Below are positions 17,621 through 39,999 of a stretch of DNA of 46,589 bases, piece after piece. The notes under the pieces were generated by a model. That model was not told the DNA's origin. It saw only the letters and a program-made list of their open reading frames with translations, and ran no database searches. This stretch comes from Bacteriovoracaceae bacterium. GTDB taxonomy: Bacteria > Bdellovibrionota > Bacteriovoracia > Bacteriovoracales > Bacteriovoracaceae. The number at the start of each line of letters is the position of its first letter. Position 1 is the first letter of the stretch. The position numbers and the translations under genes are program-made. Location of the stretch: the NCBI GenBank assembly GCA_019752535.1, contig JAIEMA010000025.1, forward strand, positions 1 to 46,589, written 5' to 3'.

Positions 17621-17649
17621 TGTCACAAATGACTGTTCACAAACGTTAA
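17621..17649 (+). promoter_or_regulatory. ECF-type promoter motif, site 1 (DUF411 operon)
   Basis: TGTCACA at 17621-17627, 15 nt, then ACGTTAA at 17643-17649. The element ends 55 nt before the DUF411 start. Its spacing and both boxes match eight other sites in the window (see the first finding), which is the main evidence that it is a real promoter. Confidence 0.75.
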
Positions 17650-17704
17650 ACGTGTCAAAGTAATTCCTCGTTTAAACTTTTTCGAGCATATCCAGGGAGC
17701 CCAT

Positions 17705-18139
17705 TTGAAATTTTACATTATAGGTTTCTTATTGTTTTTCAATTTACTAAGTTGCAATAAAGCTGAATCGGCCTTAAAAACGATCACAGTTTATAGATCG
17801 CCCCATTGTGGTTGTTGTAAGAAATGGGAATCACATTTAGAAGCGAACGGCTTTAAAGTTAGATCGGAAGTTGTAAATGATCTATCTTCAGTTAAGGAAA
17901 TTCAAGCCGTTCCTCCCAAGTTGAAATCATGTCATACGGCAGTTATAAATGGCTATTTGATCGAAGGACATGTTCCAGCAGATGCGATCGAGAAACTATT
18001 GAAGGAAGCGCCTAAAGATATTTTAGGTCTGTCAGTGCCAGGGATGCCAATGGGATCACCTGGGATGGAGGGAGCCGTGAATGAAAAATTCGACGTCATT
18101 TCATTTGATGCTTCAGGAAAAGACCGTGTGTTTCAGTAA
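17705..18139 (+). CDS. DUF411 metal-associated lipoprotein
   Basis: A 144-residue envelope protein of the DUF411 family, found in copper and silver tolerance loci. It has a lipoprotein signal (FNLLSC, Cys17), then the metal-binding CGCC motif (Cys35, Cys37, Cys38) in YRSPHCGCCKKWESHL, followed by the family features SCHTAVINGYLIEGHVPADAI and GLSVPGMPMGSPGME, rich in Met. The start is TTG at 17705 with AGGGAG 5 nt upstream. The ECF-type promoter motif precedes it, and the His/Met-rich peptide gene follows after 48 nt, probably in one transcript. A role in periplasmic copper binding is inferred from the family. Confidence 0.88.
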   Translation: MKFYIIGFLLFFNLLSCNKAESALKTITVYRSPHCGCCKKWESHLEANGFKVRSEVVNDLSSVKEIQAVPPKLKSCHTAVINGYLIEGHVPADAIEKLLKEAPKDILGLSVPGMPMGSPGMEGAVNEKFDVISFDASGKDRVFQ

Positions 18140-18187
18140 AGGTAGAATGTTAAAATTGTCAGTCATGTCAACATAAGGAGAACTTTT

Positions 18188-18424
18188 ATGAAAGCATTTA
18201 TTATGGTCACCATTACATGTCTTTTTACCTCTTTAGTTTTTGCTCATACTCATGAGGAAACAAAGAAAAAAACTTCGACCTCAAGCTCTTCGGAAATAAA
18301 AGAAGATCATATGGACCATATGAATAATATGGAGGATATGAATCACGAAGAACATGAGCATACGGATAAAAATACAGAATCTCAGAAACCCAAAAAAACT
18401 AAGAAACAAGCTCCTAATTTGTGA
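18188..18424 (+). CDS. Small secreted His/Met-rich protein, probable metal binder
   Basis: A 78-residue protein with a signal peptide (cleavage near SLVFAHT) and a mature part that is low-complexity and charged: DHMDHMNNMEDMNHEEHEH followed by a Lys-rich tail. The repeated HM and HE pairs are typical of copper- or silver-binding segments. It has a good AAGGAG site and lies 48 nt after the DUF411 gene, so it is likely co-expressed. No named family is recognised. Metal binding is inferred from composition. Confidence 0.75.
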   Translation: MKAFIMVTITCLFTSLVFAHTHEETKKKTSTSSSSEIKEDHMDHMNNMEDMNHEEHEHTDKNTESQKPKKTKKQAPNL

Positions 18425-18522
18425 AGCCGCTTAATTGAATTTAAATTAAAGAAAATCTTCGGGGAGTTGCAATCTGTATTTGTAGCAGGCACTTCCCGTG
18501 AATGCAACTAGAACAATCTTTC

Positions 18523-19275
18523 TTATACCTTCACTCTCTTCATGCTATTTAGCAGCCGGAGCTTTTTCCCAAAGACAAATGAGGGTGTAATCCCAAATAT
18601 CTCTCTAAAGGATTTGGTGAAATGCGACTGGTCGCTGAATCCTGCCTGCAACGATGCCTCTGTTAAGGTGCAGCCGTTCTGGAGAAAATAATTAATTGCA
18701 ATTTTGAGTCGCTTCCAGATAAGTAATCTTCTTAATGGAATGCCCACTTCTTTTGAGAACAAATGGCTGAACGTACTTTCAGAAAGTCCTGCTTTTTTGC
18801 AAATGTCTTCCATATTTATTTCATTACCAATCTGAGATTCGATATATTTAAGACATTTGCGTATCCTAGGGTCTTGAGGACCAGAAGAAAAAGCATAGAT
18901 GCCAAGATCTGTTAACACTGAGTTGTATAATATTTCTGCATCTCCTAATGACACCGGGGAATTACAGCAGGAGTTTAAGCGATTTAAAGTTTCACTTGAG
19001 ACAAATGCATTTGGAGAATTGGGTGTGAAGTGAAATCGAGAGTCTTCCGCATCAACATAGAGAAGAGCTACCCTTCCCAAAAAGGTTGTTCTGTGTTTGG
19101 TGTTTGGTAGCAACACAAAAACTGAATCCTTTCTCCATTCACCCTCAATTTGAATCTCAGTTTCACCATCCAGTGCTATCACTACTTGAATTGCATTATG
19201 CGAATGCTCTCCAGTATTAAAACTGGCCCCGAGGTACATAGCCTTAGAACTCCATAAATAAAGCACTGGTAACAT
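18523..19275 (-). CDS. AraC-family transcriptional regulator
   Basis: A 250-residue regulator with an N-terminal cupin-like sensor domain (HSHNAIQVVIALDGETEIQIEG) and a C-terminal double helix-turn-helix of the AraC type: INMEDICKKAGLSESTFSHLFSKEVGIPLRRLLIWKRLK and then LTEASLQAGFSDQSHFTKSFREIFGITPSFV. It is transcribed divergently from the sterol-desaturase-family gene, with 69 nt between starts, so it may control that operon and itself. Its ligand is unknown. Confidence 0.9.
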   Translation of the reverse strand: MLPVLYLWSSKAMYLGASFNTGEHSHNAIQVVIALDGETEIQIEGEWRKDSVFVLLPNTKHRTTFLGRVALLYVDAEDSRFHFTPNSPNAFVSSETLNRLNSCCNSPVSLGDAEILYNSVLTDLGIYAFSSGPQDPRIRKCLKYIESQIGNEINMEDICKKAGLSESTFSHLFSKEVGIPLRRLLIWKRLKIAINYFLQNGCTLTEASLQAGFSDQSHFTKSFREIFGITPSFVFGKKLRLLNSMKRVKV

Positions 19276-19344
19276 ACTGAAACCCCATGAAACTTTTGCC
19301 AGATCTTACAATTTTTAATTGATGATCAGAATTATTATGAGTGC

Positions 19345-21279: not shown

Positions 21280-21537
21280 CTATTGTGGTGTACTGTTGTG
21301 CTGATGGTCCTGATGATCTTTGCTTGGTCCATCAACATTAGATAACTCTTTTTTATCTCGAGAAGTGTCATTCCCTTTAGTATCCTTGCAGGCTTCCTTG
21401 TGACCGCACTTTAGACAGGGCTCATCGCAATTATGCTCTTTTTGTCCCGTAGTGTGATCTACATTTTTGCTTGATACTTTCGTTTGACCAAAGACATGAA
21501 ATGATGAAATCAAAATACACAAAATGAAGAGTTTCAT
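21280..21537 (-). CDS. Small secreted Cys/His-rich protein
   Basis: An 85-residue protein with a clear signal peptide (ILISSFHVFGQ), a cysteine cluster CDEPCLKCGHKEAC that could bind a metal, and a His-rich tail (DHQDHQHNS). I know no named family. AAAGG precedes the ATG at 21537 and an ECF-type promoter motif lies 43 nt further upstream in the correct orientation, which together support a real gene. Function in envelope metal handling is inferred from composition and shared regulation. Confidence 0.75.
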   Translation of the reverse strand: MKLFILCILISSFHVFGQTKVSSKNVDHTTGQKEHNCDEPCLKCGHKEACKDTKGNDTSRDKKELSNVDGPSKDHQDHQHNSTPQ

Positions 21538-21580: not shown

Positions 21581-21609
21581 ACTACGTTTGAGAAGGTCGA
21601 TTTGTGACA
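21581..21609 (-). promoter_or_regulatory. ECF-type promoter motif, site 2 (Cys/His-rich gene)
   Basis: On the minus strand: TGTCACA (21609-21603), 15 nt, ACGTAGT (21587-21581), ending 43 nt before the ATG at 21537. The upstream box is perfect and the downstream box keeps the ACGT core. Confidence 0.72.
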
Positions 21610-21816: not shown

Positions 21817-21845
21817 TTAACGTATGGAACGGGGAAAATGTGACA
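21817..21845 (-). promoter_or_regulatory. ECF-type promoter motif, site 3, without an assigned gene
   Basis: On the minus strand: TGTCACA (21845-21839), 15 nt, ACGTTAA (21823-21817), a full match. It points into the gap and lies 280 nt upstream of the Cys/His-rich gene, which already has its own motif. It may drive a small RNA, a very short ORF, or a longer transcript of the same gene. Confidence 0.65.
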
Positions 21846-21983: not shown

Positions 21984-24686
21984 ATGAAGAATTACCTTAT
22001 CAGCTTATTTTTTCTTTCATTCGCAACATCAGCTTTTGCAACTGTCTATATAGACCCTTCCATCCGGCCTTGTGACTCTGAAATCGAATCGAGATGGCTA
22101 TATACTCCAACCGTAGTGGAAGCGCCCGGTTCGCCTAAGATGCCCTTCAGATGTGAGGGAAATGTAAAGGTCTATGAGGTAACTGCTGGAATAGTGATGA
22201 GTACCTTTGATCGCAGCTACGAACCTGGTCCTATTTATACTTGGGGCTACAACGGCAGTAATCCTGGGCCAGTTATGGAGTTCCTTGAAGGTGAAAAGAT
22301 AAAAATTATTTTCAAGAACAATCTGCCTGAACCCACTGTTTTACACTATCACGGCCTTGAAGTTCCCTTTAACCAAGATGGAGCAGAGGGACACTCTCAG
22401 ATTTCAGTCAATACAGGTGAAACTTATATATATGAGTTCCAGGTCAACCAAAATGGAACTTTCATGTACCATTCAGGCCAGAACTTGGCCAAGCAGCTTT
22501 CGTTAGGCTTGGTTGGGTTTATGATCGTCCACCCTAAAAAGATACCTGAAACACTAGTTGATCATGACTTTCTTTATTTCTTGCAGATGTATTCTGTTCC
22601 TCCTCACAGTATTTTCCCAGATATAATGGAAATGGTTGCATTCAACTACTTCACCTTTAACGGTAAGGTTTCACCTTATACACCGTCTCCATTGACCTAT
22701 GTGGGTCAGAAGGCCCGTATTCGATTTGCTAATATGTCTATGATGGAACACCCTGTTCACTTACATGGGCACACCTGGCGGGTTGTAGCCACCGGAGCGG
22801 GAGATAATCCTCGTAGCACACACACTTATGGTAATACTATTTTAGTCCCAACTTCACAGACCATGGATGTAATCATTGATGAAATCGATGAGCCAGGTGA
22901 GTGGATGTTCCATTGTCACCTTCCACACCACGTAACAAACAATATGGACGTCGATACGATACCCGGTGAACCAATGTATATGGGTAACGGAGGGATGCAT
23001 GCAGTCTTCAAGGTTTTTAGAGGGCCAAATGATCCGGGTTATGTGAATCCGAATGAAACTCAAGATGGCGGTATGGATGGCATGCCGGGCATGGGACAAG
23101 CCGGAGGAACTCAAGGTGGCGGTCATGGCGGTGGACACGGTGGCATGAATGCTCCGAAAATGACAACTTATGATGGTCAAATCAAGCTATCAAATGGCAC
23201 TCGTCTTGAGATGTCGCTAGAGCTCTATAAAGCGCAGGAAGGGAAAGAATGGAGAAAGGCCATGGCCTTTATCAAGCTCTACCTTAATAAAGATGAGTTT
23301 ATGGTCTTTCATTATGACCAAGTTAAGTACAATTTTGAAACTGGAATCATGAGCATTGAATCTGATAACCGGTCGGTAACATTATCTAACCTGACATACA
23401 TGGAAATGGATGATGGAGGAATGTTATCAGGAGATGCTTCAGTTGATTTCGGTGCGTTTAAAGGAGAGGTCTCTCTGAATGCCCGTGACCCGGAATTAAG
23501 AGAGATGAGACTCAGAAATGATCTAAGTGTCAGCGGTGAATATGAAGCATCTTGCAACAACAAGAAAGAAAATCTCCAGTTAATAACGGCCAGAAGCCTT
23601 GTAGGTATCGATGGTGATACTAATAATCCTTTGGCCAGTTTTGGGATATATGGGACTCTGGGCACAGTTGAAAGAATGGGAGTTCAGGTAAACTCTTCAG
23701 TCACTGAAGGTTTCTATAATCCATTCAAGGGATCATTGAGGCTACAGACAGATACGGCCGGTAACAGGAGTACTCTGGTCTGTGATACGCTTCTGAAAGT
23801 GAATAAAGTGACCGGATTGAAATGCGACAACGGTTGTGAGTATGTTCGTAAATCAACAATTTCATCTGGAAGCTTGCCCGTTGAAGACGCCCCAGAGTTT
23901 ATCAAAGATAATTCGAGTATCATCACTGAACTTACCGATTCAATTGATGTTGGTGGAGATTTTAAAGGTGCTCTGAAACTGAGTAAAAACAATTCTCTGA
24001 TTCCGATGAATTTAAAAATTGTTTCTAAGAGATATGCAACGAACTCCATGGTCATCACGAAAAATATGATTTCTGGTGTCGTGGAGCTAGATGTCTCTGA
24101 CAAAGGTTCAATGTCTTACAAATTGAAAGAACGGTCATTTCTTGACTCTTCTTCGGTTATCAATAATGGAAAAAACCTTTTATTGTTCGAAACGACTAAG
24201 AAGCTTTCATTGATAGTAACTAAGTGGTCAACAGGGATGATTTATGGAGAAGTTTACCATGAAGACTTCGGCCTATTAGGTGAATTTGCAACGAAGAGAA
24301 ACGCAAAATCTTTTAAAGAAGTACTTGTCCAAAAAGAGACTGCTAAAGTGCTGAGCAAGCTAGATGGTTCTTTTTCAAATAATGACTGGAAGCTTGAACT
24401 AAGTGCTGTAGAAATTGAAGATGGAGAAGGCCCCGGCATTTTTTCTCCACTCCATCTGAAGGGAAGACTAGTAAGTAAAAGCGGAGCGATGACAGTGAAT
24501 TTCATCACAGGCTCATATGACTATGTACTTGGTACGTTTTACTTGAAATCAGATGACGACAGGATACTGAAAGGCACCATCAATGGGGATAAAGTTGAGC
24601 TATATTTGATATCAAAACCCGTTAGAAGATCGAGTTATATGAATCTTTCAACTTCGAAAATTCAACTGATGAGGAATCTAAAATGA
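21984..24686 (+). CDS. Two-domain multicopper oxidase with Gly/His/Met linker and large novel C-terminus
   Basis: A 900-residue exported protein (signal peptide to about residue 19). Residues about 60-345 form a two-cupredoxin multicopper oxidase like small laccases: HYHG (His121, His123), HPVHLHGH (His256, His259, His261), and HCH-H-M (His310, Cys311, His312, His316, Met321), which supplies the type 1 copper ligands. The second HxH motif is incomplete: MYHSGQ keeps His163 but has Gly165 where His is expected. Residues about 362-392 are a Gly/His/Met-rich linker. The remaining 500 residues look beta-rich and repetitive and match no family I know. The ATGA overlap with the next gene shows an operon with a TolC-like protein. 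Copper oxidation or export assistance is inferred. Confidence 0.85.
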   Translation: MKNYLISLFFLSFATSAFATVYIDPSIRPCDSEIESRWLYTPTVVEAPGSPKMPFRCEGNVKVYEVTAGIVMSTFDRSYEPGPIYTWGYNGSNPGPVMEFLEGEKIKIIFKNNLPEPTVLHYHGLEVPFNQDGAEGHSQISVNTGETYIYEFQVNQNGTFMYHSGQNLAKQLSLGLVGFMIVHPKKIPETLVDHDFLYFLQMYSVPPHSIFPDIMEMVAFNYFTFNGKVSPYTPSPLTYVGQKARIRFANMSMMEHPVHLHGHTWRVVATGAGDNPRSTHTYGNTILVPTSQTMDVIIDEIDEPGEWMFHCHLPHHVTNNMDVDTIPGEPMYMGNGGMHAVFKVFRGPNDPGYVNPNETQDGGMDGMPGMGQAGGTQGGGHGGGHGGMNAPKMTTYDGQIKLSNGTRLEMSLELYKAQEGKEWRKAMAFIKLYLNKDEFMVFHYDQVKYNFETGIMSIESDNRSVTLSNLTYMEMDDGGMLSGDASVDFGAFKGEVSLNARDPELREMRLRNDLSVSGEYEASCNNKKENLQLITARSLVGIDGDTNNPLASFGIYGTLGTVERMGVQVNSSVTEGFYNPFKGSLRLQTDTAGNRSTLVCDTLLKVNKVTGLKCDNGCEYVRKSTISSGSLPVEDAPEFIKDNSSIITELTDSIDVGGDFKGALKLSKNNSLIPMNLKIVSKRYATNSMVITKNMISGVVELDVSDKGSMSYKLKERSFLDSSSVINNGKNLLLFETTKKLSLIVTKWSTGMIYGEVYHEDFGLLGEFATKRNAKSFKEVLVQKETAKVLSKLDGSFSNNDWKLELSAVEIEDGEGPGIFSPLHLKGRLVSKSGAMTVNFITGSYDYVLGTFYLKSDDDRILKGTINGDKVELYLISKPVRRSSYMNLSTSKIQLMRNLK

Positions 24687-29090: not shown

Positions 29091-29590
29091 TTTTTAACTC
29101 CTTTTAACATTGAGATTGCCCTGCTTAATCGTTTTCGCAAGGACGCCTCAGTAACAGAGTGTCTTTCTGACAACTCTTTAGAACTTAAACCTTCGTAAAA
29201 ATATTCTTTAAGCAATTTTGCTTTTTCATTTGGTAGGGTACTGAGCATATCATCGATATTAAATTCAGGTTCATTTTCTTGGTGGCCAGACAGGCGAAGC
29301 TTTTCATTTAGTTTAATGCTGATATTATTTTTCCTGTAATCATCGATGACAATATTACGTAATATGACATACAGCCATAGTTGAAAAGGCTGTCCATTCC
29401 ACGCAGACTTATTTTCAATGATTTTAATGAAACAATCCTGGAATAGGTCTTCAGCGATCGGTCTTGAATTTCTTCTTATAAGATAGGCGTAAACTTTTTT
29501 GGAATGCCGATTATACAGCTCGAGTATGGCCTGCCCCTCATCTCCATTTTTTAGAAGAGTCATTAACTCTTCATCTGTCTTCTCTTTCAT
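29087..29590 (-). CDS. ECF RNA polymerase sigma factor 1
   Basis: A 167-residue sigma-70-family ECF factor. Region 2 reads YNRHSKKVYAYLIRRNSRPIAEDLFQDCFIKI and continues with PFQLWLYVILRNIVIDDYR; region 4 reads LLKEYFYEGLSSKELSERHSVTEASLRKRLSRAISML. It directs polymerase to a small regulon, probably the TGTCACA-N15-ACGTTA promoters in this window. It lies between two membrane anti-sigma-like genes, 27 nt after the frameshifted one and overlapping the intact one by 4 nt. The ECF-type motif at 30189-30217 precedes the operon, suggesting autoregulation. Confidence 0.92.
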   Translation of the reverse strand: MKEKTDEELMTLLKNGDEGQAILELYNRHSKKVYAYLIRRNSRPIAEDLFQDCFIKIIENKSAWNGQPFQLWLYVILRNIVIDDYRKNNISIKLNEKLRLSGHQENEPEFNIDDMLSTLPNEKAKLLKEYFYEGLSSKELSERHSVTEASLRKRLSRAISMLKGVKK

Positions 29591-29617: not shown

Positions 29618-30182
29618 TCATGCATATCGAAGAATGTTTATTTTTATCTTTGAACTAATTTCGAATAATAGTGATCCTCCAGCAAACGCGCCAAATACCC
29701 AGTTTAATATTTCCTGAGTTGGAGGAAGGTTGGGAGATTTTAAGATCAAGAATACTGATAAGGAGAAAAAGCAAAGCAGGAAGGTGATCAGAGATTTGTA
29801 CTCGTTAAATTTATGAATTTCTTCGCGTGATAAAATGGATGCACTAATGGATAAAGTCGTACCAAGAAAAAATACACCGCATAGAATCGTACAAACTTCA
29901 TGGCCAAAGATCATGAAATAGCGGGTTATACCAATCTCTTCTCCGAATATTGAAATGCCGAATTGCGGGCATATGACTAACGTTAAAGAGCCCACAACCA
30001 AATGAACAATTAATATCTTTAATAAAATGTGTGAGAGCCTGGGATTCAGCAACTCCTTTATTTTCAATAAGATTTTCTGGGTGAGTCTTTCTGGAGGGGG
30101 GGGATCCACAGGTTAGGATAAAATCTAAATAATCAGCTTGTGCTGACTCTTTACTATCTATAATTTCTTTTTTTGGTCTCAT
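29618..30182 (-). pseudogene. Frameshifted membrane anti-sigma-like protein (paralogue 2), possibly phase-variable
   Basis: Reading from ATG 30182, the first 30 or so codons (ADYLDFILTCGSPP) match the N-termini of the two intact paralogues. In a run of eight C (G8 on the plus strand, 30096-30103) the frame is lost. The rest of the family sequence (ERLTQKILLKIKELL, then CPQFGISIFG, VCTILCG) continues in another frame to 29618. Seven C would restore one 187-residue protein reading SPPPERL. This may be a slippage switch, a recent mutation or a sequencing error. No start codon lies between 30182 and the tract in the N-terminal frame. The promoter motif ends only 6 nt before the ATG, so the mRNA may be leaderless. 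Confidence 0.7.
30096..30103. repeat. G8 homopolymer at the frameshift
   Basis: Eight consecutive G on the plus strand (C8 in the coding sense) coincide with the point where the two halves of paralogue 2 change frame. Loss of one base restores the frame. Long G/C runs are typical slipped-strand sites. Confidence 0.85.
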
Positions 30183-30188: not shown

Positions 30189-30217
30189 ATAACGCTTGGC
30201 ATGTGTGAAATGTGACT
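30189..30217 (-). promoter_or_regulatory. ECF-type promoter motif, site 4 (sigma/anti-sigma operon)
   Basis: On the minus strand: AGTCACA (30217-30211), 15 nt, GCGTTAT (30195-30189). It differs from the consensus at the first base of each box. It precedes the operon of paralogue 2, ECF sigma 1 and paralogue 1, so the sigma factor may activate its own gene. With a typical start 6-8 nt below the box, transcription would begin at or next to the ATG at 30182. Confidence 0.65.
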
Positions 30218-30330: not shown

Positions 30331-30873
30331 TTACCCATTACGAATATCTCTTACTAGTTTTAATTGATAAGTCTTGCTTCTAAGTGTTAGCCAAAAGGCT
30401 TGTGATAATAAAGCAGATAGTATCCATGCTAGGTGATACAAAACTGATTCACCTTCAAGATTCAGGGATAAGTTTGTAAGCATTAAAATGAACCACAAGG
30501 CCGGAGGAAAAAGTACAAGGGAATATTTGTAGTGTCTCCATACCCACCATAACTCATCTCCTTTCATGCCAATGTAAGCAACCAACATCCCTGAGGATAG
30601 AAATAGTGACCCACAAAATGAGGCGCAGACCCAGTCTCCAAAAAGTCTAAAAAAATGCGTGATACCATGCCCATCTACTAGTCCTATCCCAAATTGTGGA
30701 CAAAAGGATAAAGTAAAAGCTGCTCCTAACATCTGAAACAAAATAAATTTTGTAAGGATGGCTTTTTTATGAAATGAGAGCAAAATATCTTTTTGGACAG
30801 ATAGGCTCAAACTTTTTGGTGGGATTTCACTCTGAGTGATAAATTCTAAAAAATCATTTTTATCATCTTTCAT
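30331..30873 (-). CDS. Membrane protein beside an ECF sigma gene, probable anti-sigma factor (paralogue 3)
   Basis: A 180-residue intact member of the same family as paralogues 1 and 2: cytosolic N-terminus NDFLEFITQSEIPPKS, then FTLSFCPQFGIGLVDGHGITHFF, then WVCASFCGSLFL and further transmembrane helices. It starts 1 nt after the stop of ECF sigma 2, so the two are translationally linked. The conserved Cys of CPQFGI and the paired Cys of the next helix again suggest a metal- or redox-responsive sensor. Function is inferred from position and paralogy. Confidence 0.7.
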   Translation of the reverse strand: MKDDKNDFLEFITQSEIPPKSLSLSVQKDILLSFHKKAILTKFILFQMLGAAFTLSFCPQFGIGLVDGHGITHFFRLFGDWVCASFCGSLFLSSGMLVAYIGMKGDELWWVWRHYKYSLVLFPPALWFILMLTNLSLNLEGESVLYHLAWILSALLSQAFWLTLRSKTYQLKLVRDIRNG

Positions 30874-30874: not shown

Positions 30875-31375
30875 TTAAACCTCGAATTTGTCTTTCAATC
30901 CTTGCAAGGCTCTTGATAAACGTTTACGCAAGCTGTTTTGTGACATTCCGGTCTGTATTTCTAAATCTTCGTAGCTAAACCCTTCTAAATAGTACTTGCG
31001 AACCAGGATAGCGGTTTCGTCGGGTAATTTGTTAAGGATTTCGTTAATCTCCTCGATGCATTGAGTATCTTCATTAATCTCTGAAGGAAGAGAATGCTCA
31101 AGGAGTTTCTTTTTTCTGCTGGAACTTCTGTATTCATCCACTAAAAGATTTTTTATTAACACAAACAACCATGGGGCAAACGGCTGATTCTGGTAACAAT
31201 CGCGTTTTTCGTGTAAATGTCTCCAAACGGACTGATAGAAGTCCTCCGTCTCTGATGGGTGAAGGCGCTTTCTAATATAGCCATATACCATTGGCGAATA
31301 TTTATCATAGAGTTTATTGAATGCCCCTTCGTTGCCGGCCTTATAGGCATTCATTAATTGTTCATCTGAAATCAT
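30875..31375 (-). CDS. ECF RNA polymerase sigma factor 2
   Basis: A 166-residue ECF sigma factor with region 2 (YDKYSPMVYGYIRKRLHPSETEDFYQSVW, PFAPWLFVLIKNLLVDEYR) and region 4 (LVRKYYLEGFSYEDLEIQTGMSQNSLRKRLSRALQGL). It is clearly paralogous to sigma 1. Its own upstream region shares the 31376-31460 gap with the divergent ECF-type promoter at 31424-31452 but shows no such motif on its own strand. It may therefore be expressed constitutively and act as the entry point of the regulon. No good ribosome site precedes the ATG at 31375. Confidence 0.92.
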   Translation of the reverse strand: MISDEQLMNAYKAGNEGAFNKLYDKYSPMVYGYIRKRLHPSETEDFYQSVWRHLHEKRDCYQNQPFAPWLFVLIKNLLVDEYRSSSRKKKLLEHSLPSEINEDTQCIEEINEILNKLPDETAILVRKYYLEGFSYEDLEIQTGMSQNSLRKRLSRALQGLKDKFEV

Positions 31376-31423: not shown

Positions 31424-31452
31424 TGTCACAAATGACCTTGGAATTACGTTAT
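31424..31452 (+). promoter_or_regulatory. ECF-type promoter motif, site 5
   Basis: TGTCACA (31424-31430), 15 nt, ACGTTAT (31446-31452). The first 13 bases (TGTCACAAATGAC) are identical to site 1. It drives the gene starting at 31479 and lies opposite the ECF sigma 2 gene. Confidence 0.75.
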
Positions 31453-31478
31453 AGATTATAATGTCAAAAAGAGGGTGT

Positions 31479-32117
31479 ATGTTGATCAAAGTGGTCTGTT
31501 TGTTAGCATTAATTTTTTCACTTCCTTCGTTCTCTCATCCGGTTATCTATAAAGAGGGGACTGTTGTGAGTTCCTCAAATATGAAGTCTTATAGTGACAA
31601 TCAATTGATGTACTCTTGGTCTAATAGGTGGGCTTCAGGTCTTAACCACTGGCGCTTCACTAAGGATGAAAGTAACACTGATCTAGCTTTCTTAAAAACC
31701 AATTATCTGCTTTACCGGTACAACGGAGAATTTTCACAGGGAAATATCTATGTCCATGGCGGATTCGGGGTCGCAGATTCTGAAATCGAAAAACGGCAGA
31801 CTAATGAAGCCTATATGACTGGCGTAGAGATGGACTGGGAGACCAGGACCCTTTATACATCCTGGAAATATTATTATTTTACATCACCAAAAGTCACCGA
31901 CATCTCCATGACTCAGGCAAGAATAGGATTTTCACCCTATGAAGCTGGTTTTGACCAACTTCAGTCTTGGTTCATGGTCCAGGTGATGTATATGCCTGAT
32001 GTAGAAAAAGAGGCCATCATCACCCCTTTGCTTAGATTCTTCTATAAGAATGTCCTCTGGGAGATTGGGTCAAGCACCAGAGCAGAATGGATGCTCAATA
32101 TCATGGTTCATTACTAG
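31479..32117 (+). CDS. Secreted protein of unknown function, probably outer-membrane associated
   Basis: A 212-residue protein with signal peptide (LALIFSLPSFSH) and a mature part rich in Tyr, Trp and alternating residues (YSWSNRWASGLNHWRF, LYTSWKYYYF, WFMVQVMYMPD), as in beta-barrel or beta-sandwich envelope proteins. I know no named family. ATG at 31479 is preferred over 31461 because AGAGGG precedes it and because the promoter motif ends only 8 nt before 31461. It is followed by an independent promoter for the MerP-like gene, and shared regulation suggests a metal-stress role. Confidence 0.65.
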   Translation: MLIKVVCLLALIFSLPSFSHPVIYKEGTVVSSSNMKSYSDNQLMYSWSNRWASGLNHWRFTKDESNTDLAFLKTNYLLYRYNGEFSQGNIYVHGGFGVADSEIEKRQTNEAYMTGVEMDWETRTLYTSWKYYYFTSPKVTDISMTQARIGFSPYEAGFDQLQSWFMVQVMYMPDVEKEAIITPLLRFFYKNVLWEIGSSTRAEWMLNIMVHY

Positions 32118-32119: not shown

Positions 32120-32148
32120 TGTCACAAAAAGCGAATCCCAAACGTCTT
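32120..32148 (+). promoter_or_regulatory. ECF-type promoter motif, site 6 (MerP-like operon)
   Basis: TGTCACA (32120-32126), 15 nt, ACGTCTT (32142-32148). It begins 2 nt after the preceding stop codon and ends 20 nt before the ATG at 32169. Confidence 0.72.
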
Positions 32149-32168: not shown

Positions 32169-32444
32169 ATGAAAAAAATAATCATGCTGAGTCTTTGTCT
32201 TTTAAGCCCAACTTTATATGCCAAAGAAATTACAGTAAAAGTCAACGGGATGGTTTGTTCGATGTGTGCACAAGGAATTCAAAAGAAATTTTCTAAAATT
32301 TCTGAAGTAAAAGATATTAAGGTTGATCTTGATACGAAGGTCGTTTCAATCGTTACGAAAGACGACAAAGACCTTAAAGATTCAAAAATCAAAGAAATTA
32401 TAACAGAGGCTGGATACAATGTTGCAACAATTGAAAGAAAGTAG
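32169..32444 (+). CDS. Periplasmic heavy-metal-associated (HMA) protein, MerP-like
   Basis: A 91-residue exported protein: signal peptide to about residue 18 (SPTLYAKE), then a single HMA domain with the metal motif GMVCSMC (Cys30, Cys33) and the usual beta-alpha-beta pattern ending EAGYNVATIE. It should bind a soft metal ion (Hg2+, Cu+, Zn2+) in the periplasm and pass it to a partner. Its 3' end overlaps the next gene, a MerT-like membrane protein, by 26 nt. No mercuric reductase is present here, so copper or another metal is at least as likely as mercury. Confidence 0.88.
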   Translation: MKKIIMLSLCLLSPTLYAKEITVKVNGMVCSMCAQGIQKKFSKISEVKDIKVDLDTKVVSIVTKDDKDLKDSKIKEIITEAGYNVATIERK

Positions 32445-32808
32445 TGCATTGAAAAAGTTCTTTAGCTGGTTTGGACTTTTTAGCTCATTCGGTACACTTT
32501 TTTGTTGTGCTATTCCATCGACACTCGTTTTGCTGGGGTTTGGAGCGACGATGGCTTCATTCCTTGGAAACTTTCCTCAACTTATCTGGTTATCAGAGAA
32601 TAAGGGATATGTCTTCGGGTTAAGTTTTGTCATGCTAGGGATTTCATTTGCAGGTCAAAAATATGCACAGTCACAAGTTTGTCCAATTGATAAACGAGAG
32701 GATTGTGAAAAGACAAAAGATTGGTCAAAGCCTCTTTTTTGGATGTCTTTAGGAATAAATGTCGTGGGTTCATTTTATGCATTTGTGCTACCTAAAGTTT
32801 TGGAATGA
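32419..32808 (+). CDS. MerT/MerC-like inner-membrane metal transport protein
   Basis: A 129-residue membrane protein with about three hydrophobic segments and a Cys pair in the first (GTLFCCAIPSTLVLLG, Cys29-Cys30), plus a loop with CPIDKREDC. The paired Cys in a membrane helix followed by a cytosolic Cys pair is the layout of mercury-type importers that accept metal from an HMA protein, which is exactly what the overlapping upstream gene encodes. The metal is not determined. The start at 32419 lies inside the HMA gene; a later start cannot be excluded. The haem-binding gene follows after 1 nt. Confidence 0.72.
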   Translation: MLQQLKESSALKKFFSWFGLFSSFGTLFCCAIPSTLVLLGFGATMASFLGNFPQLIWLSENKGYVFGLSFVMLGISFAGQKYAQSQVCPIDKREDCEKTKDWSKPLFWMSLGINVVGSFYAFVLPKVLE

Positions 32809-32809
32809 A

Positions 32810-33298
32810 ATGAAGGCAATTATTTTATTAATGATTCCCCTTACAGTGTTCGGTCATGGAAACATCAAGCACTCTGAGAAAAAAGAATCGCATCAAACTC
32901 CTGTGAAGGTGGACGATTCCTTTGTGGCAATTTATAAAAATATTAATGCCGAGTATAAGATAAAAGTAGAAGCAATCTTCAAGGGGAAATGCTTCGACTG
33001 CCACTCAGGCCAAACAGTATATCCTTGGTATTACAAAATACCGGGAGTGAACTTATTGATTGATTCGGACATTAAAGAAGCGAGGTCTCATTTAGATATG
33101 AGCGATGGCTTTCCATTCAAAGGACATGGGACACCTTTACAAGATCTAGGCGAGTTAGAAAAAACGGTGAAGTCGAATTCTATGCCACCGTTATATTATA
33201 AGTTGTTTCATGATAAATCTTCACTTACAGAAATTGAAAAAGAGACAATTTTAAACTGGGTAAGAAAGTCAAAGGTGCGGCTAGAAGAGGGGCAATGA
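32810..33298 (+). CDS. Periplasmic haem-binding protein (Haem_bd type, CxxCH)
   Basis: A 162-residue exported protein with signal peptide (MIPLTVFGHG) and one haem c motif CFDCH (Cys61-His65) in KGKCFDCHSGQTVYPWYYKIPGVNLLIDSDIKEAR. That is followed by the MPP motif (NSMPPLYYKL) whose Met may be the second haem ligand, and by LTEIEKETILNWV. This matches the short Haem_bd family. ATG at 32810 is chosen since a signal peptide follows directly; an earlier in-frame ATG at 32759 lies inside the MerT-like gene. It may accept electrons in metal or respiratory redox chemistry. Confidence 0.85.
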   Translation: MKAIILLMIPLTVFGHGNIKHSEKKESHQTPVKVDDSFVAIYKNINAEYKIKVEAIFKGKCFDCHSGQTVYPWYYKIPGVNLLIDSDIKEARSHLDMSDGFPFKGHGTPLQDLGELEKTVKSNSMPPLYYKLFHDKSSLTEIEKETILNWVRKSKVRLEEGQ

Positions 33299-33397
33299 TT
33301 GCTAAATTTTATGTACCTGGTAAAACCTTTTGGGCTGTATAATTAACGCTTGGACGCGAGGTTTGCTGCTGCGGATTAAAAAATATTATTAAACTGA

Positions 33398-33426
33398 TGT
33401 CACATATTAGTATGCTCAACCGTTAT
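33398..33426 (+). promoter_or_regulatory. ECF-type promoter motif, site 7 (lipoprotein/haem/YceI operon)
   Basis: TGTCACA (33398-33404), 15 nt, CCGTTAT (33420-33426). It ends 15 nt before the ATG at 33442. The run of four tightly spaced genes to 36159 should all be expressed from it. Confidence 0.72.
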
Positions 33427-33441: not shown

Positions 33442-33804
33442 ATGTTGAATTTAAAAAGTTTCTCGATCCTGACTCTCGTAACCTTTATTTCCGTAGGCTG
33501 TGCCAGCAACAAGCATTCACGCATGAGTGGTTCCGTCGCCATGAAAATTAGCGAATCAAAAGGTGTGGCCTGTCTGTTTGGAGAGAGTCCAAAAGTTGGT
33601 GATGATCTAACTATTTTTGAAAATGTTTGCTCAGAAGAAAGAGGTGGCGCTAGAGGTAAAGAAGGCGCTGGTCCATCAAGCTGTAAGATGGTTAAGACAG
33701 GGAGCGCCACGATTTCCAGAATGATAAATGATCACTACGCCGAGTTTGAAACAAAATCGAATGTGTCCTTTGATGAAGGTTATATAATCGAGCTATCAAA
33801 GTAA
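33442..33804 (+). CDS. Small lipoprotein, copy C of the three-member paralogous family
   Basis: A 120-residue lipoprotein (lipobox ISVGC, Cys20). It repeats the family pattern seen at 6348 and 15902: MSGSVAMKI, a Cys, KVGD, a Cys, ARG, a Cys and MINDHYAEF, ending with FDEGYII. ATG at 33442 has AGAGG nearby and follows the ECF-type promoter; an upstream ATG at 33397 overlaps that promoter and is rejected. It heads an operon with a dihaem lipoprotein, YceI and a haem-barrel fusion, so this copy probably serves an envelope redox or metal function. Confidence 0.82.
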   Translation: MLNLKSFSILTLVTFISVGCASNKHSRMSGSVAMKISESKGVACLFGESPKVGDDLTIFENVCSEERGGARGKEGAGPSSCKMVKTGSATISRMINDHYAEFETKSNVSFDEGYIIELSK

Positions 33805-33813
33805 GGAATAAAA

Positions 33814-34512
33814 GTGATGAAATTAAACAAAGGTTCTAATCTTTTTATCTTAGGATTAGTCACTTTGCTGATTTCATCGTGCAATTACAAGATAGAAAAA
33901 GAAATAAACAGTGATCCTATCTCTGTAACTGATCAGTTGAGACGGTCAGTGTCTTATAATCAAGTTAAGACGGAAGTCTTTCAAAGTAAGTGCATTTCTT
34001 GCCATGGAAATTCAGGTGGGGTGAATCTAGAATCATATTCATCAACTCTGCAAAATCTAAATGGCATCAAAAAGTCGGTTCTCAAGAGTAAGACAATGCC
34101 AAAAGCTCCTTTTTCGGCACTGGATAGGAGACAGCTTGAAGTTTTAACGGCTTGGATTGAAGCTGGAGGGCCTGAAAAACCAATCGGTGGTGGGGATGGG
34201 GAACCTGAGCCTGAACCAACTGTGATAGAGCCTAATTTCCCCTCCATTAAGAAGCATGTGTTGGAGATGAAGTGCATATCTTGTCACCAGGTAGGTCAAT
34301 CTGCTGGAAGGATTCCACTCGTGACAAAGGAAGATCTCCTTGAGTCACCCATGGACATAGTAGTCCCAGGTGACCCAGATGAAAGCGGTATTATGATTGT
34401 GATTCAACCCGGAGCAAGAAAATTCATGCCCCCGGCTGACTCTGGTATATCTCCACTAACTGAGGAAGAAAAAAATGCAATTAGAGTATGGATTCAAAAT
34501 GGCGCTCCTTAA
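33814..34512 (+). CDS. Dihaem c-type cytochrome-like lipoprotein (copy 1)
   Basis: A 232-residue lipoprotein (lipobox LISSC, Cys23) with two similar haem modules. The first has KCISCHGN (Cys60-His64) followed by MPKAP and LTAWIEAGGP. After an acidic Pro-rich linker (GEPEPEPT) comes the second with KCISCHQVG (Cys154-His158), MPPADSG and IRVWIQNGAP. This resembles planctomycete-type cytochrome modules in which the Met of MPP may be the axial ligand. It is paralogous to 37245-37913. It probably carries electrons at a membrane surface. Its 3' end overlaps the YceI gene by 14 nt. Confidence 0.85.
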   Translation: MMKLNKGSNLFILGLVTLLISSCNYKIEKEINSDPISVTDQLRRSVSYNQVKTEVFQSKCISCHGNSGGVNLESYSSTLQNLNGIKKSVLKSKTMPKAPFSALDRRQLEVLTAWIEAGGPEKPIGGGDGEPEPEPTVIEPNFPSIKKHVLEMKCISCHQVGQSAGRIPLVTKEDLLESPMDIVVPGDPDESGIMIVIQPGARKFMPPADSGISPLTEEEKNAIRVWIQNGAP

Positions 34513-35071
34513 AATTCTCTCTGTTCTCCTTGTCGTGGGGTCAGTCGTGGCCCATGCTCAAAAAATTGATTTATCAACGGGTGCAAAAGTTGAGTTTGAT
34601 GCCGTAGGAAAGCCTGCGATGATCAATATCAAAGGGACCGGTGGAAAAGCGACTGGTGTGCTTTCTTTGTTGGAAAGCAAGCTGTCTGGAGATCTGGTAG
34701 TGAATTTGAAAGAATTCACTACAGACATGGACTTGCGGGATGAACACATGAAGGAAAAATATCTTGAAGTGAACAAATCAGGATTTGATAAAGCCATTCT
34801 TAAAATCGATCAAAAATTGGAAATGGCAAGTTTCCCATCTTCTGGTGCATGGGAACCCAAGCTTCTCAAAGGGATGCTAACCTTACATGGCGTTACCAAA
34901 GAAGTCCCTCTCAACTGCAAAATATCAATTAAAGACTCAGGGGCCGCCGGAACTGTGTCGTTTAAAATTAAAGTTAAGGATTATAACATTGATATCCCTG
35001 AGTTCGCGGGAATTACTATGACCAATGAAGTTGATGTGAAAGTCTTCTTGAATAATAAAGTTGTCCCTTGA
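34499..35071 (+). CDS. YceI family periplasmic protein
   Basis: A 190-residue exported protein (signal peptide LLVVGSVVAHAQ). The mature part shows the lipocalin-like YceI pattern: KVEFDAVGKPAMINIKG, FTTDMDLRDEHMKEKYLEV, GMLTLHGVTKEVPL and VKDYNIDIPEFAGITMTNEVDVKV. YceI proteins bind isoprenoid-like lipids, and their genes often sit near cytochromes and redox genes, as here. ATG at 34499 overlaps the dihaem lipoprotein end and gives a signal peptide directly; a start at 34475 is less likely. Confidence 0.9.
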   Translation: MALLKILSVLLVVGSVVAHAQKIDLSTGAKVEFDAVGKPAMINIKGTGGKATGVLSLLESKLSGDLVVNLKEFTTDMDLRDEHMKEKYLEVNKSGFDKAILKIDQKLEMASFPSSGAWEPKLLKGMLTLHGVTKEVPLNCKISIKDSGAAGTVSFKIKVKDYNIDIPEFAGITMTNEVDVKVFLNNKVVP

Positions 35072-36159
35072 TTTTAATTCTACTTTTTTTACCTGTTTTC
35101 TCGGCTTGGTCGTTTCCTGAACTCGTTCGCTACGGTTATCCTAATTGCGTTGCTTGTCACGTGAGTCCTTCTGGTGGGGGCGTATTAAATCAATATGGAC
35201 GTGAACTCTCGAAAGAAATTCTTAGTACATGGGGAGCGAAAGGGGAGCAATACTTTGCTTATGGATTGGTCAAGACCCCTCAGAATGTTAACCTTCAAGC
35301 TTATGTAAGATTACTTCAACTTCATAGAGAAACTCCAAGCATAAAAGAAGGACGTGCCATACTGATGCAGGCCGACCTGGAAGGGTCCTACAGATATAAA
35401 AACGTGACAGCAGTGGCAACGCTTGGAAGGCAGGAAAAGCAAGTCAAGGGAGAAAAGGTTGTTCAACCAATTTCCAGAAGACATTATCTGTTATGGCAAG
35501 CGACTGACAAGGCTACTTTACGAGGTGGAAAGTTTGCTCGCAACTTCGGTCTCAATACGCCCTACCATACAAGCTTTGTGTATCGGGATCTTGGATTTGG
35601 GCAAGATACAGAAACATACAATCTAGAGTTATCTTATATTAAAGATAACATGACCTTTTTTTACACAGCGGTTTTGGGAGCATACCAAGACAAAACGACA
35701 TATGCTTCCGAGAAAGCGAATACTATTTCCTTTCAATACTCATTTTTAAAAAGTCAGAAGGTGGGTGCGACATATTACAAAGGAAAGGATGATAATCAGG
35801 AGAGGGATATCATTGGACCTTGGTTAATATTAAATTATAATAAAAATTTATTTTTGATGTCTGAACTCTTCTTTCAGGATAAAGAAAACTTAAGTTCTAA
35901 GGAAACCTCAAAAGGTTATGTAAATACTAATAGGTTTAATTATCAAATTTTCAAAGGTGTCATTCCCTTCCTGACCTTCGAAGCTTCTCAATTAGATTGG
36001 ACTACAGATTTTTCTAAACGACAGTCTTATGGAGCTGGCCTACAATTCTTTCCTAGGCCCCATATTGAACTCATGGCGAGCTATCAAAAAGATAGGTATT
36101 ACATAGATGATGGTTATTTTTCTGATCTCTATTGGTTCATGTTCAATTACTATTTGTAA
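35068..36159 (+). CDS. Haem-motif protein fused to an outer-membrane beta-barrel
   Basis: A 363-residue exported protein. Right after the signal peptide is one haem c motif, NCVACH (Cys27-His31), in YGYPNCVACHVSPSGGGVLNQYGREL. The rest alternates polar and aromatic residues in short strands (YVRLLQLHRE, GSYRYKNVTAVATLGRQE, WLILNYNKN and others) and ends in aromatic-rich YWFMFNYYL, as expected for a porin-like barrel with a C-terminal aromatic residue. The TTG start at 35068 overlaps the YceI stop (TTGA), implying coupling. It could move electrons across the outer membrane with the dihaem lipoprotein; that is inference. Confidence 0.8.
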   Translation: MILILLFLPVFSAWSFPELVRYGYPNCVACHVSPSGGGVLNQYGRELSKEILSTWGAKGEQYFAYGLVKTPQNVNLQAYVRLLQLHRETPSIKEGRAILMQADLEGSYRYKNVTAVATLGRQEKQVKGEKVVQPISRRHYLLWQATDKATLRGGKFARNFGLNTPYHTSFVYRDLGFGQDTETYNLELSYIKDNMTFFYTAVLGAYQDKTTYASEKANTISFQYSFLKSQKVGATYYKGKDDNQERDIIGPWLILNYNKNLFLMSELFFQDKENLSSKETSKGYVNTNRFNYQIFKGVIPFLTFEASQLDWTTDFSKRQSYGAGLQFFPRPHIELMASYQKDRYYIDDGYFSDLYWFMFNYYL

Positions 36160-36385: not shown

Positions 36386-36414
36386 TGTCACGAACAGGCA
36401 GCCATAAACGTTAT
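36386..36414 (+). promoter_or_regulatory. ECF-type promoter motif, site 8
   Basis: TGTCACG (36386-36392), 15 nt, ACGTTAT (36408-36414). It ends 96 nt before the ATG at 36511, the longest leader among the sites. An inverted repeat lies in that leader. Confidence 0.7.
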
Positions 36415-36490: not shown

Positions 36491-36510
36491 CCTTTCAATT
36501 AGGAGTTCTC

Positions 36511-37086
36511 ATGATGAAGGTCTTATGTTTTCTGCTTACTCTTACAACGGTCAACTTTGCTTTTGCACAACATGGAGAACATACTTTAACCAATGCTAAA
36601 ATTGCTCACGATGCCTCTCATCGAGTAGGAAAGCTTGTTGATACGGGCAAAATTGATGAATTTTTCATCAAAGACATGAGATCTATTGAAATAAAAAATT
36701 TGCCACATAACTTACCAACGGACCCGGCTTATTCAGTTCTCGTATCAGCAGGGGCCACAGCTCAAACTCTTTTGACATTCGACATGAAAGGTAAATTCCT
36801 TTCAAACAAGATCATCAATCAAGATCCTTCAGAGGAAACTCAATGGGAAACGTATGCTTCTGAACTTTTAGAAGCAGCATTACACTTTGTAACAGAAGTT
36901 TCAAATCCGAACATTGATATGAGTCCATTCGTTAAGACTCTTGGTGTTGCTACCTTGAAACAGCAAAAGAGTGAAGATGGGGCAGTACAACCTGTTGTCA
37001 TCCTTTCTTCAACTTCATCTGAAAAATTGCTACAGGTCGTGTTATCTCAGAAAGGCGAAATCGTTAGTTATTCTTTGGTTGAATAA
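36511..37086 (+). CDS. Secreted protein of unknown function
   Basis: A 191-residue protein with a signal peptide ending near VNFAFAQH and a mature part beginning HGEHTLTNAKIAHDASHRVGKLVDTGKID. The predicted fold is mixed helix and strand, without Cys in the mature protein. I know no family for it. AGGAG precedes the ATG at 36511; ATG at 36514 would also serve. It has its own ECF-type promoter and is followed by a strong hairpin, so it appears to be a single-gene unit of the regulon. Confidence 0.75.
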   Translation: MMKVLCFLLTLTTVNFAFAQHGEHTLTNAKIAHDASHRVGKLVDTGKIDEFFIKDMRSIEIKNLPHNLPTDPAYSVLVSAGATAQTLLTFDMKGKFLSNKIINQDPSEETQWETYASELLEAALHFVTEVSNPNIDMSPFVKTLGVATLKQQKSEDGAVQPVVILSSTSSEKLLQVVLSQKGEIVSYSLVE

Positions 37087-37096
37087 TAATGGTTAG

Positions 37097-37913: not shown

Positions 37914-37961
37914 GCAGCAGTTTTTGGCCGCAAGTATTAGCAAAAACCAAAGGAGGTTTAT

Positions 37962-38390: not shown

Positions 38391-38446
38391 TAATGTTTTT
38401 AGATTGAAACCATTCAGGGTACTAATATTTTCCAAAGGAGATTTTT

Positions 38447-38704: not shown

Positions 38705-38711
38705 AAAATTC

Positions 38712-38738
38712 GGGTCGGGAATCATCCATTCCTGACCC
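38712..38738. terminator. Terminator-like hairpin after the 38447 gene
   Basis: GGGTCGGGAAT pairs with ATTCCTGACCC across a 5-nt loop, with one G-T wobble, 8 nt after the stop codon. It is GC-rich and stable; the A run lies before and not a T run after, so on the plus strand it is an imperfect intrinsic terminator. Confidence 0.6.
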
Positions 38739-38987
38739 CGATTCTAGCAATACGATTTCAAATTGAAATTTTAAAGAAAAGACTTGTCCTAAGTGCGTGT
38801 GTGCGTGGTTATTCACAACACCCTGACTTAAATATTTTCGAAATCTTCTTTAGAATAGCCCAAATTTTCATATGAAATTTCATGATCATAGAGTGTTTCT
38901 TTTTTTTGCGCAGCACATTATGGAATTATTTACTTCGAATGAACAAATACCAATCCCTGTTATAATAAGTCAAAAGTGGGGTTTGAA

Positions 38988-39815
38988 ATGAGATATGTTT
39001 TATTTCTAAGCTTTATATTCTTTGGGATATCATCTGCTACTTTTGGCAAAGAATCCTTAAGTATTGGCAAGCTCATCATTGGTTGCACGACGAAGTGTTC
39101 TTTTTTTTACGAACGGGCCTTGAAGAGAATTTCAAAGTTAAATCGCATACCAATCACCATTATAGATCTTTCAAAAAATCCAGAACTGGAGTTAAGCGAG
39201 GTTGACGGTATTGTCATCCCGGGTGGAGCCGATATTAACCCACAATACTATCTTCCTTATGTAGAGGATGAACTTCAAAGATATACGCGTGGTCTTGATC
39301 ACTTGGTCAACTATAGTTCAGAGGGTGAAAGAAGAGACCCCTTTGAGTATGGTCTTTTGAAAAAATATTTCAATGATCAAAGTTTATATGACTTACCTGT
39401 ATTGGGCATTTGTCGTGGAATGCAGATGCTTGCAGTCTCACAGGGGATACCACTCTATGTTGATATAAAGACTGAATTGGGAATCAGGAACAGAAGATAT
39501 TTATATGATCGGATCAATGTAAAAGATCATGATTCCCTGATGAAAGAACTGTTTCCTGCATTAACTTTTTTGGGTTTTGAACAACACCATCAAGGCATTA
39601 GAGTTGATTATTACAAAAAGCATCACACCCGGTGGCCTAATGTGAAAGTGACTTCATATTCAAATAAGGACCTTATTGCTGAAAGCATGGAATTTACTGA
39701 TAGGCCCGTGCTTGGAGTTCAATTTCACCCTGAAAAAGATTTCGGAAATGAGCGACGTTCTATTTTTGGTTGGTTTTTGAATAAAGCCAAATCCAGAAAA
39801 TCGGGCAAGTTTTAA
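38988..39815 (+). CDS. Exported class I glutamine amidotransferase-like peptidase (C26, gamma-Glu hydrolase type)
   Basis: A 275-residue protein with a signal peptide (FIFFGISSATFGK) and the C26 hydrolase signature: VIPGGADINPQYY, the nucleophile Cys in LGICRGMQMLAVSQG, QHHQGIRV, and the His-Glu pair in VLGVQFHPEKD. Family members cleave gamma-glutamyl amide bonds, for example gamma-glutamyl-GABA in putrescine breakdown. An exported version is uncommon, so the substrate may be a cell-wall or periplasmic gamma-glutamyl compound. ATG at 38988 with GGGG upstream is chosen over GTG at 38976. A good terminator follows. Confidence 0.85.
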   Translation: MRYVLFLSFIFFGISSATFGKESLSIGKLIIGCTTKCSFFYERALKRISKLNRIPITIIDLSKNPELELSEVDGIVIPGGADINPQYYLPYVEDELQRYTRGLDHLVNYSSEGERRDPFEYGLLKKYFNDQSLYDLPVLGICRGMQMLAVSQGIPLYVDIKTELGIRNRRYLYDRINVKDHDSLMKELFPALTFLGFEQHHQGIRVDYYKKHHTRWPNVKVTSYSNKDLIAESMEFTDRPVLGVQFHPEKDFGNERRSIFGWFLNKAKSRKSGKF

Positions 39816-39819
39816 GGCC

Positions 39820-39853
39820 GGAGAGCTATCCATTCTTCCCAGCTCTCCTTTTT
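39820..39853 (+). terminator. Intrinsic terminator after the C26 peptidase gene
   Basis: GGAGAGCT (39820-39827) pairs with AGCTCTCC (39841-39848) and is followed directly by TTTTT (39849-39853). It begins 4 nt after the stop codon. This is a canonical plus-strand terminator and separates this gene from the CusCBA-like operon. Confidence 0.88.
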
Positions 39854-39971
39854 CGTCTTTGTCACCAAAAAGCCAGTCATTAACAAATGTGAGGTAATCC
39901 ACAGCCTCACAAGGTATGAAAGCCTATATCTTTTCTGGATTCTTTTGGTCGGCTTTTTTATTTTGTTTCCA

Positions 39972-39999
39972 TGTCACAAATATGCTTTTTAAACGTTAT
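39972..39999 (+). promoter_or_regulatory. ECF-type promoter motif, site 9 (CusCBA-like operon)
   Basis: TGTCACA (39972-39978), 14 nt, ACGTTAT (39993-39999). Spacing is one base shorter than in the other eight sites. It ends 37 nt before the ATG at 40037. Confidence 0.68.

Follow-up and report, generated by a model that had tools for sequence, protein, structure and literature searches.

A probable copper regulon of ECF sigma factors and their putative membrane anti-sigma factors in a Bacteriovoracaceae bacterium

Several extracytoplasmic function (ECF) sigma factors have been connected with copper. In Caulobacter crescentus, SigF is induced by copper and controls DUF692 (bufferin-type) clusters together with a methionine sulfoxide reductase system, and its disruption renders the cells copper-sensitive (PMC8224329). 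CorE of Myxococcus xanthus governs copper-homeostasis genes (PMC3107203), and SigAb of Acinetobacter baumannii is a copper-responsive ECF sigma with two co-encoded anti-sigmas, AabA and AabB, and a sigma-dependent small RNA (PMC12153292). Another ECF group, ECF41, uses the promoter TGTCACA-n16-CGTC, the -35 element of which has been called group-specific (PMC3426412). Here we analyze a window of 46,589 nucleotides (nt) from a Bacteriovoracaceae bacterium (contig JAIEMA010000025.1; 46.6 kb, 1.3% of the 3.49-Mb genome), in which a metal island carries repeated copies of a two-box motif beginning with TGTCAC and encodes two ECF sigmas, sigma-1 and sigma-2, each with a co-encoded membrane protein containing C-P-Q-F...C-x3-C (hereafter the CPQ protein). 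We consider it probable that the sites are promoters of one ECF sigma family paired with the CPQ protein, and that periplasmic copper frees the sigma to switch on a copper regulon.

The likeness to SigF-NrsF lies in the combination of an ECF sigma and a membrane partner with a DUF692/MNIO cluster and a methionine sulfoxide reductase gene; copper induction would hold here by analogy. There are differences, too. CusCBA, DUF411 and multicopper oxidases are directly in the present regulon, the host belongs to another phylum, and the CPQ proteins are not NrsF (PF06532). The window CPQ proteins gave no match to that model, to which Caulobacter matched as positive control, and the one true NrsF of this genome is encoded on contig C4. 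Judged by its anti-sigma, the circuit is not a member of the SigF-NrsF pair, yet it would work like it. With ECF41 the present promoters share an identical -35 box and equal spacing, the -10 being CGTTATA instead of CGTC; ECF41 proteins, however, carry a large C-terminal extension and have no anti-sigma, while the present sigmas stop after region 4, at 166-169 amino acids (aa), and have a membrane partner. CorE senses copper by its own C-terminal Cys-rich domain, without an anti-sigma (PMC3107203), whereas sigma-1 and sigma-2 have neither a C-terminal extension nor a Cys cluster. The direct regulon of SigAb is tiny (sigAb, relA and sabS) and reaches metal genes indirectly (PMC12153292), while here the metal genes themselves carry the motif. 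The literature searched, in which few subscription journals were covered, held no description of this sigma/CPQ pair or its regulon, which is weak evidence of absence.

The original prediction placed nine copies of the motif on both strands of the window, all but one orphan just upstream of genes. All nine were found by searching the window sequence: eight read TGTCAC or AGTCAC, 16 nt and (A/G/C)CGT, and the one at 39972 is 1 base shorter. A tenth site, missed earlier, was found at 30920-30945 (-). The fuller consensus is approximately TGTCACAAAT-N10-AAACGTTATA. The sites and the genes around them are as follows, with scores from the matrix described below.

17621..17646 (+): promoter site TGTCACAAATGACTGTTCACAAACGT(TAAAC), upstream of the DUF411 gene; matrix 34.1
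17705..18139 (+): DUF411 secreted protein with a CGCC motif, copper-associated family (Pfam PF04214, 4.1e-27)
21280..21537 (-): exported Cys/His-rich peptide, 85 aa, without family match; candidate periplasmic metal binder
21584..21609 (-): promoter site, upstream of the Cys/His-rich peptide gene; matrix 32.3
21820..21845 (-): 'orphan' site, facing away from the multicopper oxidase gene; matrix 24.9
21984..24686 (+): multicopper oxidase, adjoining the divergent orphan site (Cu-oxidase_3, 7.6e-27; TIGR01480, 1e-34, under the model's cut-off)
30192..30217 (-): promoter site, AGTCAC variant, upstream of the operon 29618-30109/sigma-2/28563-29090; matrix 27.6
30920..30945 (-): tenth site, within the region 4.2 codons of sigma-1, just before the putative anti-sigma-1 gene; matrix 21.8
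31424..31449 (+): promoter site, upstream of 31461-32117; matrix 28.2
31461..32117 (+): exported protein of ~218 aa with no assigned function, conserved beside sigma in relatives
32120..32145 (+): promoter site, upstream of the MerP-like/MerT-like/Haem_bd operon; matrix 29.7
32169..33298 (+): MerP-like/MerT-like/Haem_bd operon
32169-32444 (+): MerP-like HMA protein
32419-32808 (+): MerT-like membrane protein
32759-33298 (+): Haem_bd c-type haem protein (PF14376, 6.4e-28)
33398..33423 (+): promoter site, upstream of the lipoprotein/cytochrome/YceI/barrel operon; matrix 33.1
33442..36159 (+): lipoprotein/cytochrome/YceI/barrel operon, lipoprotein first
33814-34512 (+): CXXCH cytochrome
34475-35071 (+): YceI-like protein
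35068-36159 (+): outer-membrane barrel-like protein with CXXCH
36386..36411 (+): promoter site, upstream of 36511-37086; matrix 26.3; its paralogous-island counterpart is L007 11992 (-)
36511..37086 (+): exported protein with weak DUF6488 similarity, under cut-off
39972..39996 (+): promoter site with 1 base less spacing, upstream of cusCBA
40037..45301 (+): CusC/CusB/CusA-type copper/silver efflux system (ACR_tran in 42044-45301, PF00873, 3.8e-209)

One target named in the original prediction needs correction: the site at 30217 (-) precedes the operon of 29618-30109, sigma-2 and 28563-29090, not sigma-1. The mechanically called open reading frames starting at 33397 and 39971 begin inside promoters, and the true starts are probably ~33442 and ~40037.

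The sites are far more frequent than expected from composition. Allowing up to 1 mismatch, the window holds 14 matches, against a mean of 2.93 (s.d. 1.60, maximum 8) in 100 dinucleotide shuffles. Genome-wide counts came from pattern searches and sampled stretches rather than from an annotated genome. The exact pattern TGTCAC-N16-MCGT occurs 23 times in the genome and its reversed-pattern control 6 times; 8 of the 23 fall in the window, where 0.31 would be expected if they were evenly spread (binomial P 4e-10). Of the 23, ~7 lie inside unrelated coding regions; these look like chance matches, since their number agrees with the control count of 6. The longer form TGTCACR-N15-MCGTTAWA, with up to 1 mismatch, has 13 genome sites, 5 of them in the window and 4 on contig C24. 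In a matrix built from 17 promoter sites, the 26-base promoter sites of the window score 24.9-34.1, and six random windows each contain at most 2 matches above 9; because some of the scored sites also went into the matrix, more weight belongs to the genome-wide control. As had been claimed, the neighboring carbon block at 5-17 kb lacks the motif: the search gave no exact site there and one 1-mismatch match, at 10088, inside a coding region.

Independent evidence linking motif and sigma comes from relatives (genomes named Bacteriovoracaceae, with Bdellovibrio included). A close homologue of the sigma is present in 25 of 79 genomes, this one counted. We searched for (N)GTCAC(A/G)-N15-17-CGT within 200 nt upstream of sigma, on the sigma strand, with the reversed pattern as control. 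Among 44 sigma/CPQ pairs from different genera, 26 have the motif, TGTCACAAA-N16-CGT, immediately before the sigma gene and 0 have the control, which supports the earlier proposal that a co-encoded sigma reads it. A divergent second copy is often present. Sigma genes with their own target motif are thus found across these 26 pairs and in the sigma-2 operon of the window, not for the window's sigma-1. The -10 continues as CGTATT or CGTAAT in most relatives and as CGTTATA in this lineage. Sigma-positive relatives hold more sites (47, control 11, in 24 genomes) than sigma-negative ones (41, control 13, in 54 genomes; Mann-Whitney p = 7e-6).

The genes behind the motif in relatives, identified by reading the sequences rather than by running each against Pfam, are again largely copper genes: cusCBA operons (L140, L141, L149, L150, L151, L152, L156, L157), CopA/CopZ-type genes (L145, L147, L155), CsoR-like (L147) and cupredoxin-like (L144) genes, a multicopper oxidase (L153), and DUF411 and Haem_bd proteins (L143, L149, L158). 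In the close relative UBA4097 (L063/G298), 4 of 5 genome matches fall in the orthologous island, where they precede the oxidase gene, the 31461/MerP/MerT operon, the cytochrome/YceI operon and a CusC-like gene. Homologues of 31461-32117, with 29-76% identity, stand beside sigma in relatives, Bdellovibrio-type genomes included. We propose that the regulon of this pair is small in most relatives, consisting of the pair itself and a few copper operons. Two arrangements are recorded as such. At L160:7385-9262, of Bdellovibrio type, the sigma/CPQ pair is divergent from homologues of 31461 and of the MerP-like and MerT-like proteins, and of the motif the -35 half TGTCACAA alone is visible, CCTAAT replacing CGT. 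Near 8151-8249 of L164, a divergent promoter region contains the palindromic pair CGTCACACATTTCAAATTTGTGACGTAT, which gives a site both ways with overlapping boxes.

Within this genome, the regulon reaches past the island, taking in its paralogue and no fewer than four further loci. Nearly the entire metal island has a paralogous copy on contig C24, with a multicopper oxidase, an outer-membrane protein, a peptidase C26-like protein, a DUF6488-like protein, the lipoprotein/cytochrome/YceI/barrel operon, a haem protein with sigma-2/anti-2, sigma-1/anti-1 and cusCBA. Equivalent promoters there retain the motif (L007 4061, 10777, 11992, 14871, 16474 and 18208; L044 5845), whereas the flanking non-coding sequence has diverged, and even the 1-base-shorter spacing before cusC is common to both islands (39972; L044 5845 (-)). 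Off the islands, the motif precedes two more multicopper oxidases (C42 L010 and C4 L046), an exported MsrA (C69 L012) and a bufferin-type operon (C35 L009) for a Cys-rich exported peptide, an MNIO enzyme and a DUF2063 protein. The latter operon, at L009:2222-4089 (-), matches MNIO (DUF692, PF05114) at 2.4e-88 and DUF2063 (PF09836) at 2.1e-9; its Cys-rich exported precursor matches the BufA2 model weakly (E 0.03, under cut-off). A different sigma-like gene, which has a small zinc-finger-like partner, runs divergently from this operon. In this lineage we propose a regulon of ~20 promoters, enlarged partly by duplication of the whole island. With CusCBA, multicopper oxidases, DUF411 and the MNIO operon, it has the target genes expected of a copper-responsive regulon, and the gene content here and in relatives supports reading the metal regulon of the original prediction as specifically one for copper.

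The orphan site at 21820-21845 (-) has a counterpart in the paralogous island, too (L007 4061 (-)). It would be a distal promoter either of 21280-21537 or of an RNA. Behind the counterpart, at L007:3830-4036 (-), a stretch of ~170 nt folds to -67.9 kcal/mol (z -5.7 versus shuffles) and ends in a textbook terminator hairpin, making it a candidate for a small RNA under sigma control. In the window, the equivalent stretch lacks such structure (z +0.4), and in relatives the RNA body is absent, the terminator hairpin alone recurring elsewhere. A conserved small-RNA promoter is therefore kept as a candidate only.

The sigma factors and their partners are encoded on the reverse strand, between the oxidase gene and 31461-32117.

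28563..29090 (-): CPQ-type membrane protein paired with sigma-2, putative anti-sigma
29087..29590 (-): ECF sigma-2, 167 aa, regions 2 and 4 only (Pfam Sigma70_r2, 4.1e-11; r4_2, 2e-8)
29618..30109 (-): third CPQ-type membrane protein, 163 aa, without its own sigma (alignment and profile match)
30331..30873 (-): CPQ-type membrane protein paired with sigma-1, putative anti-sigma-1
30875..31375 (-): ECF sigma-1, 166 aa (Pfam Sigma70_r2, 1e-10; r4_2, 1.4e-9)

Both sigmas match PF04542 and PF08281 above cut-off over 166-167 aa; having regions 2 and 4 without regions 1 and 3, they are ECF (group IV) factors. Each sigma gene is followed by one for a membrane protein of ~175 aa, and the third such protein (29618-30109) heads the sigma-2 operon. 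In nearly all loci of relatives examined, the CPQ protein is encoded next to, or overlapping, the sigma gene. This co-encoded downstream membrane partner is what ECF sigma/anti-sigma pairs have, and the CPQ protein is likely to be the anti-sigma of its paired sigma. The protein at 29618-30109 would be an extra anti-sigma, which may hold a sigma encoded elsewhere or heteromerise.

Alignment of 36 CPQ proteins leaves only Met1, Cys58, Gln60, Cys83, Cys87 and Trp150 invariant (numbering of 30331-30873). A profile search recovered the family from 164 of the 291 genomes sampled in the phylum, usually in one copy, and the six copies here are the most seen. The CPQ protein has no Pfam or NCBIfam family match, and no relative turned up in the PDB, either by fold (best E 1.5) or by profile against PDB sequences. 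Ten genomes sampled from outside the phylum gave no profile match, a number too small for us to claim that the family is restricted to it. In the AlphaFold model, which is confident (predicted local distance difference test 90.7), there are two N-terminal helices and four long ones; Cys58 sits where the first long helix ends, and Cys83/Cys87 where the second begins. Long helices two and three are joined by a basic loop, suggesting a cytoplasmic location for that end, so that the Cys set would be exposed to the periplasm. We lean slightly towards regarding the CPQ proteins as a new anti-sigma class that senses periplasmic copper via the invariant three-Cys site across the Bdellovibrio/Bacteriovorax phylum, with one branch writing the anti-sigma promoter into the codons of the sigma's DNA-recognition region. 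Two CPQ matches (G001:C51:2950-3408 and G003:C153:3536-3994) contain one in-frame stop each, possibly from decay or wrong boundaries. Identification of the pair with Bd0881-Bd0882 of B. bacteriovorus was rejected: the neighbor of bd0881, which was placed in L174 by its published primer sequence, encodes a small protein, not CPQ.

The putative promoter just mentioned is the tenth site, which uses the codons of M-S-Q-N-S-L-R-K-R in region 4.2 of sigma-1. Five sigma-1 genes, representing four lineages, all keep the codons TCA, CAA and CGT, while neighboring synonymous positions vary; codon usage would give each at ~0.16-0.57, and the product over four lineages is ~1e-7, a post hoc figure that ignores shared ancestry. 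This conservation is only suggestive. Sigma-2 genes are without an in-gene site. The simplest reading would be an extra promoter for the anti-sigma.

From the motif, its positions, enrichment and conservation, the gene content and the invariant residues, we infer a circuit of promoter recognition, anti-sigma activity, copper binding, copper as signal and release that would run as follows. At rest, the CPQ protein would hold the sigma, probably via its short N-terminal cytoplasmic helices. A rise of periplasmic copper, probably as Cu(I) and perhaps also of Ag, would bring the metal to the three-Cys site at the outer face of transmembrane helices 1 and 2, shift the CPQ fold and free the sigma. 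Sigma and RNA polymerase would then start at TGTCACAAA-N16-CGTTATA promoters, yielding CusCBA, multicopper oxidases, DUF411, MerP/MerT-like proteins, haem/YceI proteins, the bufferin-type copper peptide and MsrA. More sigma-2 and anti-sigma would be made as feedback, the extra anti-sigma closing the loop, and the promoter inside sigma-1 would feed anti-sigma-1 separately.

Several points weigh against this copper-released sigma circuit. First, sigma-1 has no motif upstream of its start on its own strand, here or in the paralogous island, and simple autoregulation is therefore not seen for it; the sigma-2 operon does carry the motif, and in two relatives (L060, L061) sigma-1 has an upstream site as well. 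Second, there are five sigmas of this family in the genome, leaving the assignment of promoters to sigmas ambiguous. Third, in the Bdellovibrio-type members L160-L163 the full motif was not found upstream of sigma, and in L160 and L161 only the -35-like element TGTCACAA remains, facing the divergent operon of the 31461-like protein. Fourth, the motif also occurs in some 'sigma-negative' relatives. The sigma search missed diverged pairs in G006, G017 and G037, which the CPQ profile recovered, and because such pairs fell below the E-value limit, the sigma-positive/negative split understates the link. Fifth, the periplasmic placement of the Cys site depends on the model and the positive-inside rule.

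The alternative that survives best keeps the ECF promoter and the sigma/CPQ family and replaces the signal with envelope or oxidative damage that copper also causes (misfolded or oxidised periplasmic proteins, for example), the Cys set being a redox switch. The three Cys could form disulfides, the regulon includes msrA and the genes for YceI-like and c-type cytochrome proteins, and the SigF regulon of Caulobacter was originally tied to chromate and cadmium (PMC8224329). We nevertheless find it unlikely, since across the phylum it is dedicated copper genes, far more than genes for general envelope stress, that stand behind the motif. A second alternative, which we regard as quite improbable, is that the sites are not sigma promoters and instead bind a metal regulator of CueR, CusR or AraC type that recognises TGTCAC, for example the AraC-like protein of 18523-19275. 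An AraC-family gene does adjoin the cluster, with another in the paralogous island, TGTCAC could be a half site, and L164 has a palindromic pair; against this stand the fixed two-box spacing (16, twice 15), the -10-like CGTTATA, the location just upstream of starts, the motif at the sigma gene itself in distant genera and the fact that TGTCACA-n16-CGTC is a tested ECF41 promoter type (PMC3426412). Finally, the idea that island duplication and local composition produced the enrichment, with few sites active, draws on the non-independence of the sites of two paralogous islands and on the exact matches in unrelated coding regions, and it is very improbable given that independent genera retain the motif at sigma and copper genes, that sites persisted while their flanks diverged and that off-island sites precede copper genes.

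A motif before a sigma gene paired, phylum-wide, with an undescribed three-Cys membrane protein points to a new kind of copper alarm. It would give a phylum of predatory and environmental bacteria, for which the literature searched describes no copper regulon, a defined and testable copper-response circuit, and it ties an unannotated, widespread membrane-protein family to a putative function. It would also add a second ECF family with the -35 box described as ECF41-specific, and the promoter could serve as a metal-inducible tool in Bdellovibrio-type bacteria.

Elsewhere in the window, a gene at 15400-15837 (+) with no motif upstream encodes a protein with many CxxxC/CxxC repeats, which we take to resemble the four-helix copper storage proteins (Csp type).

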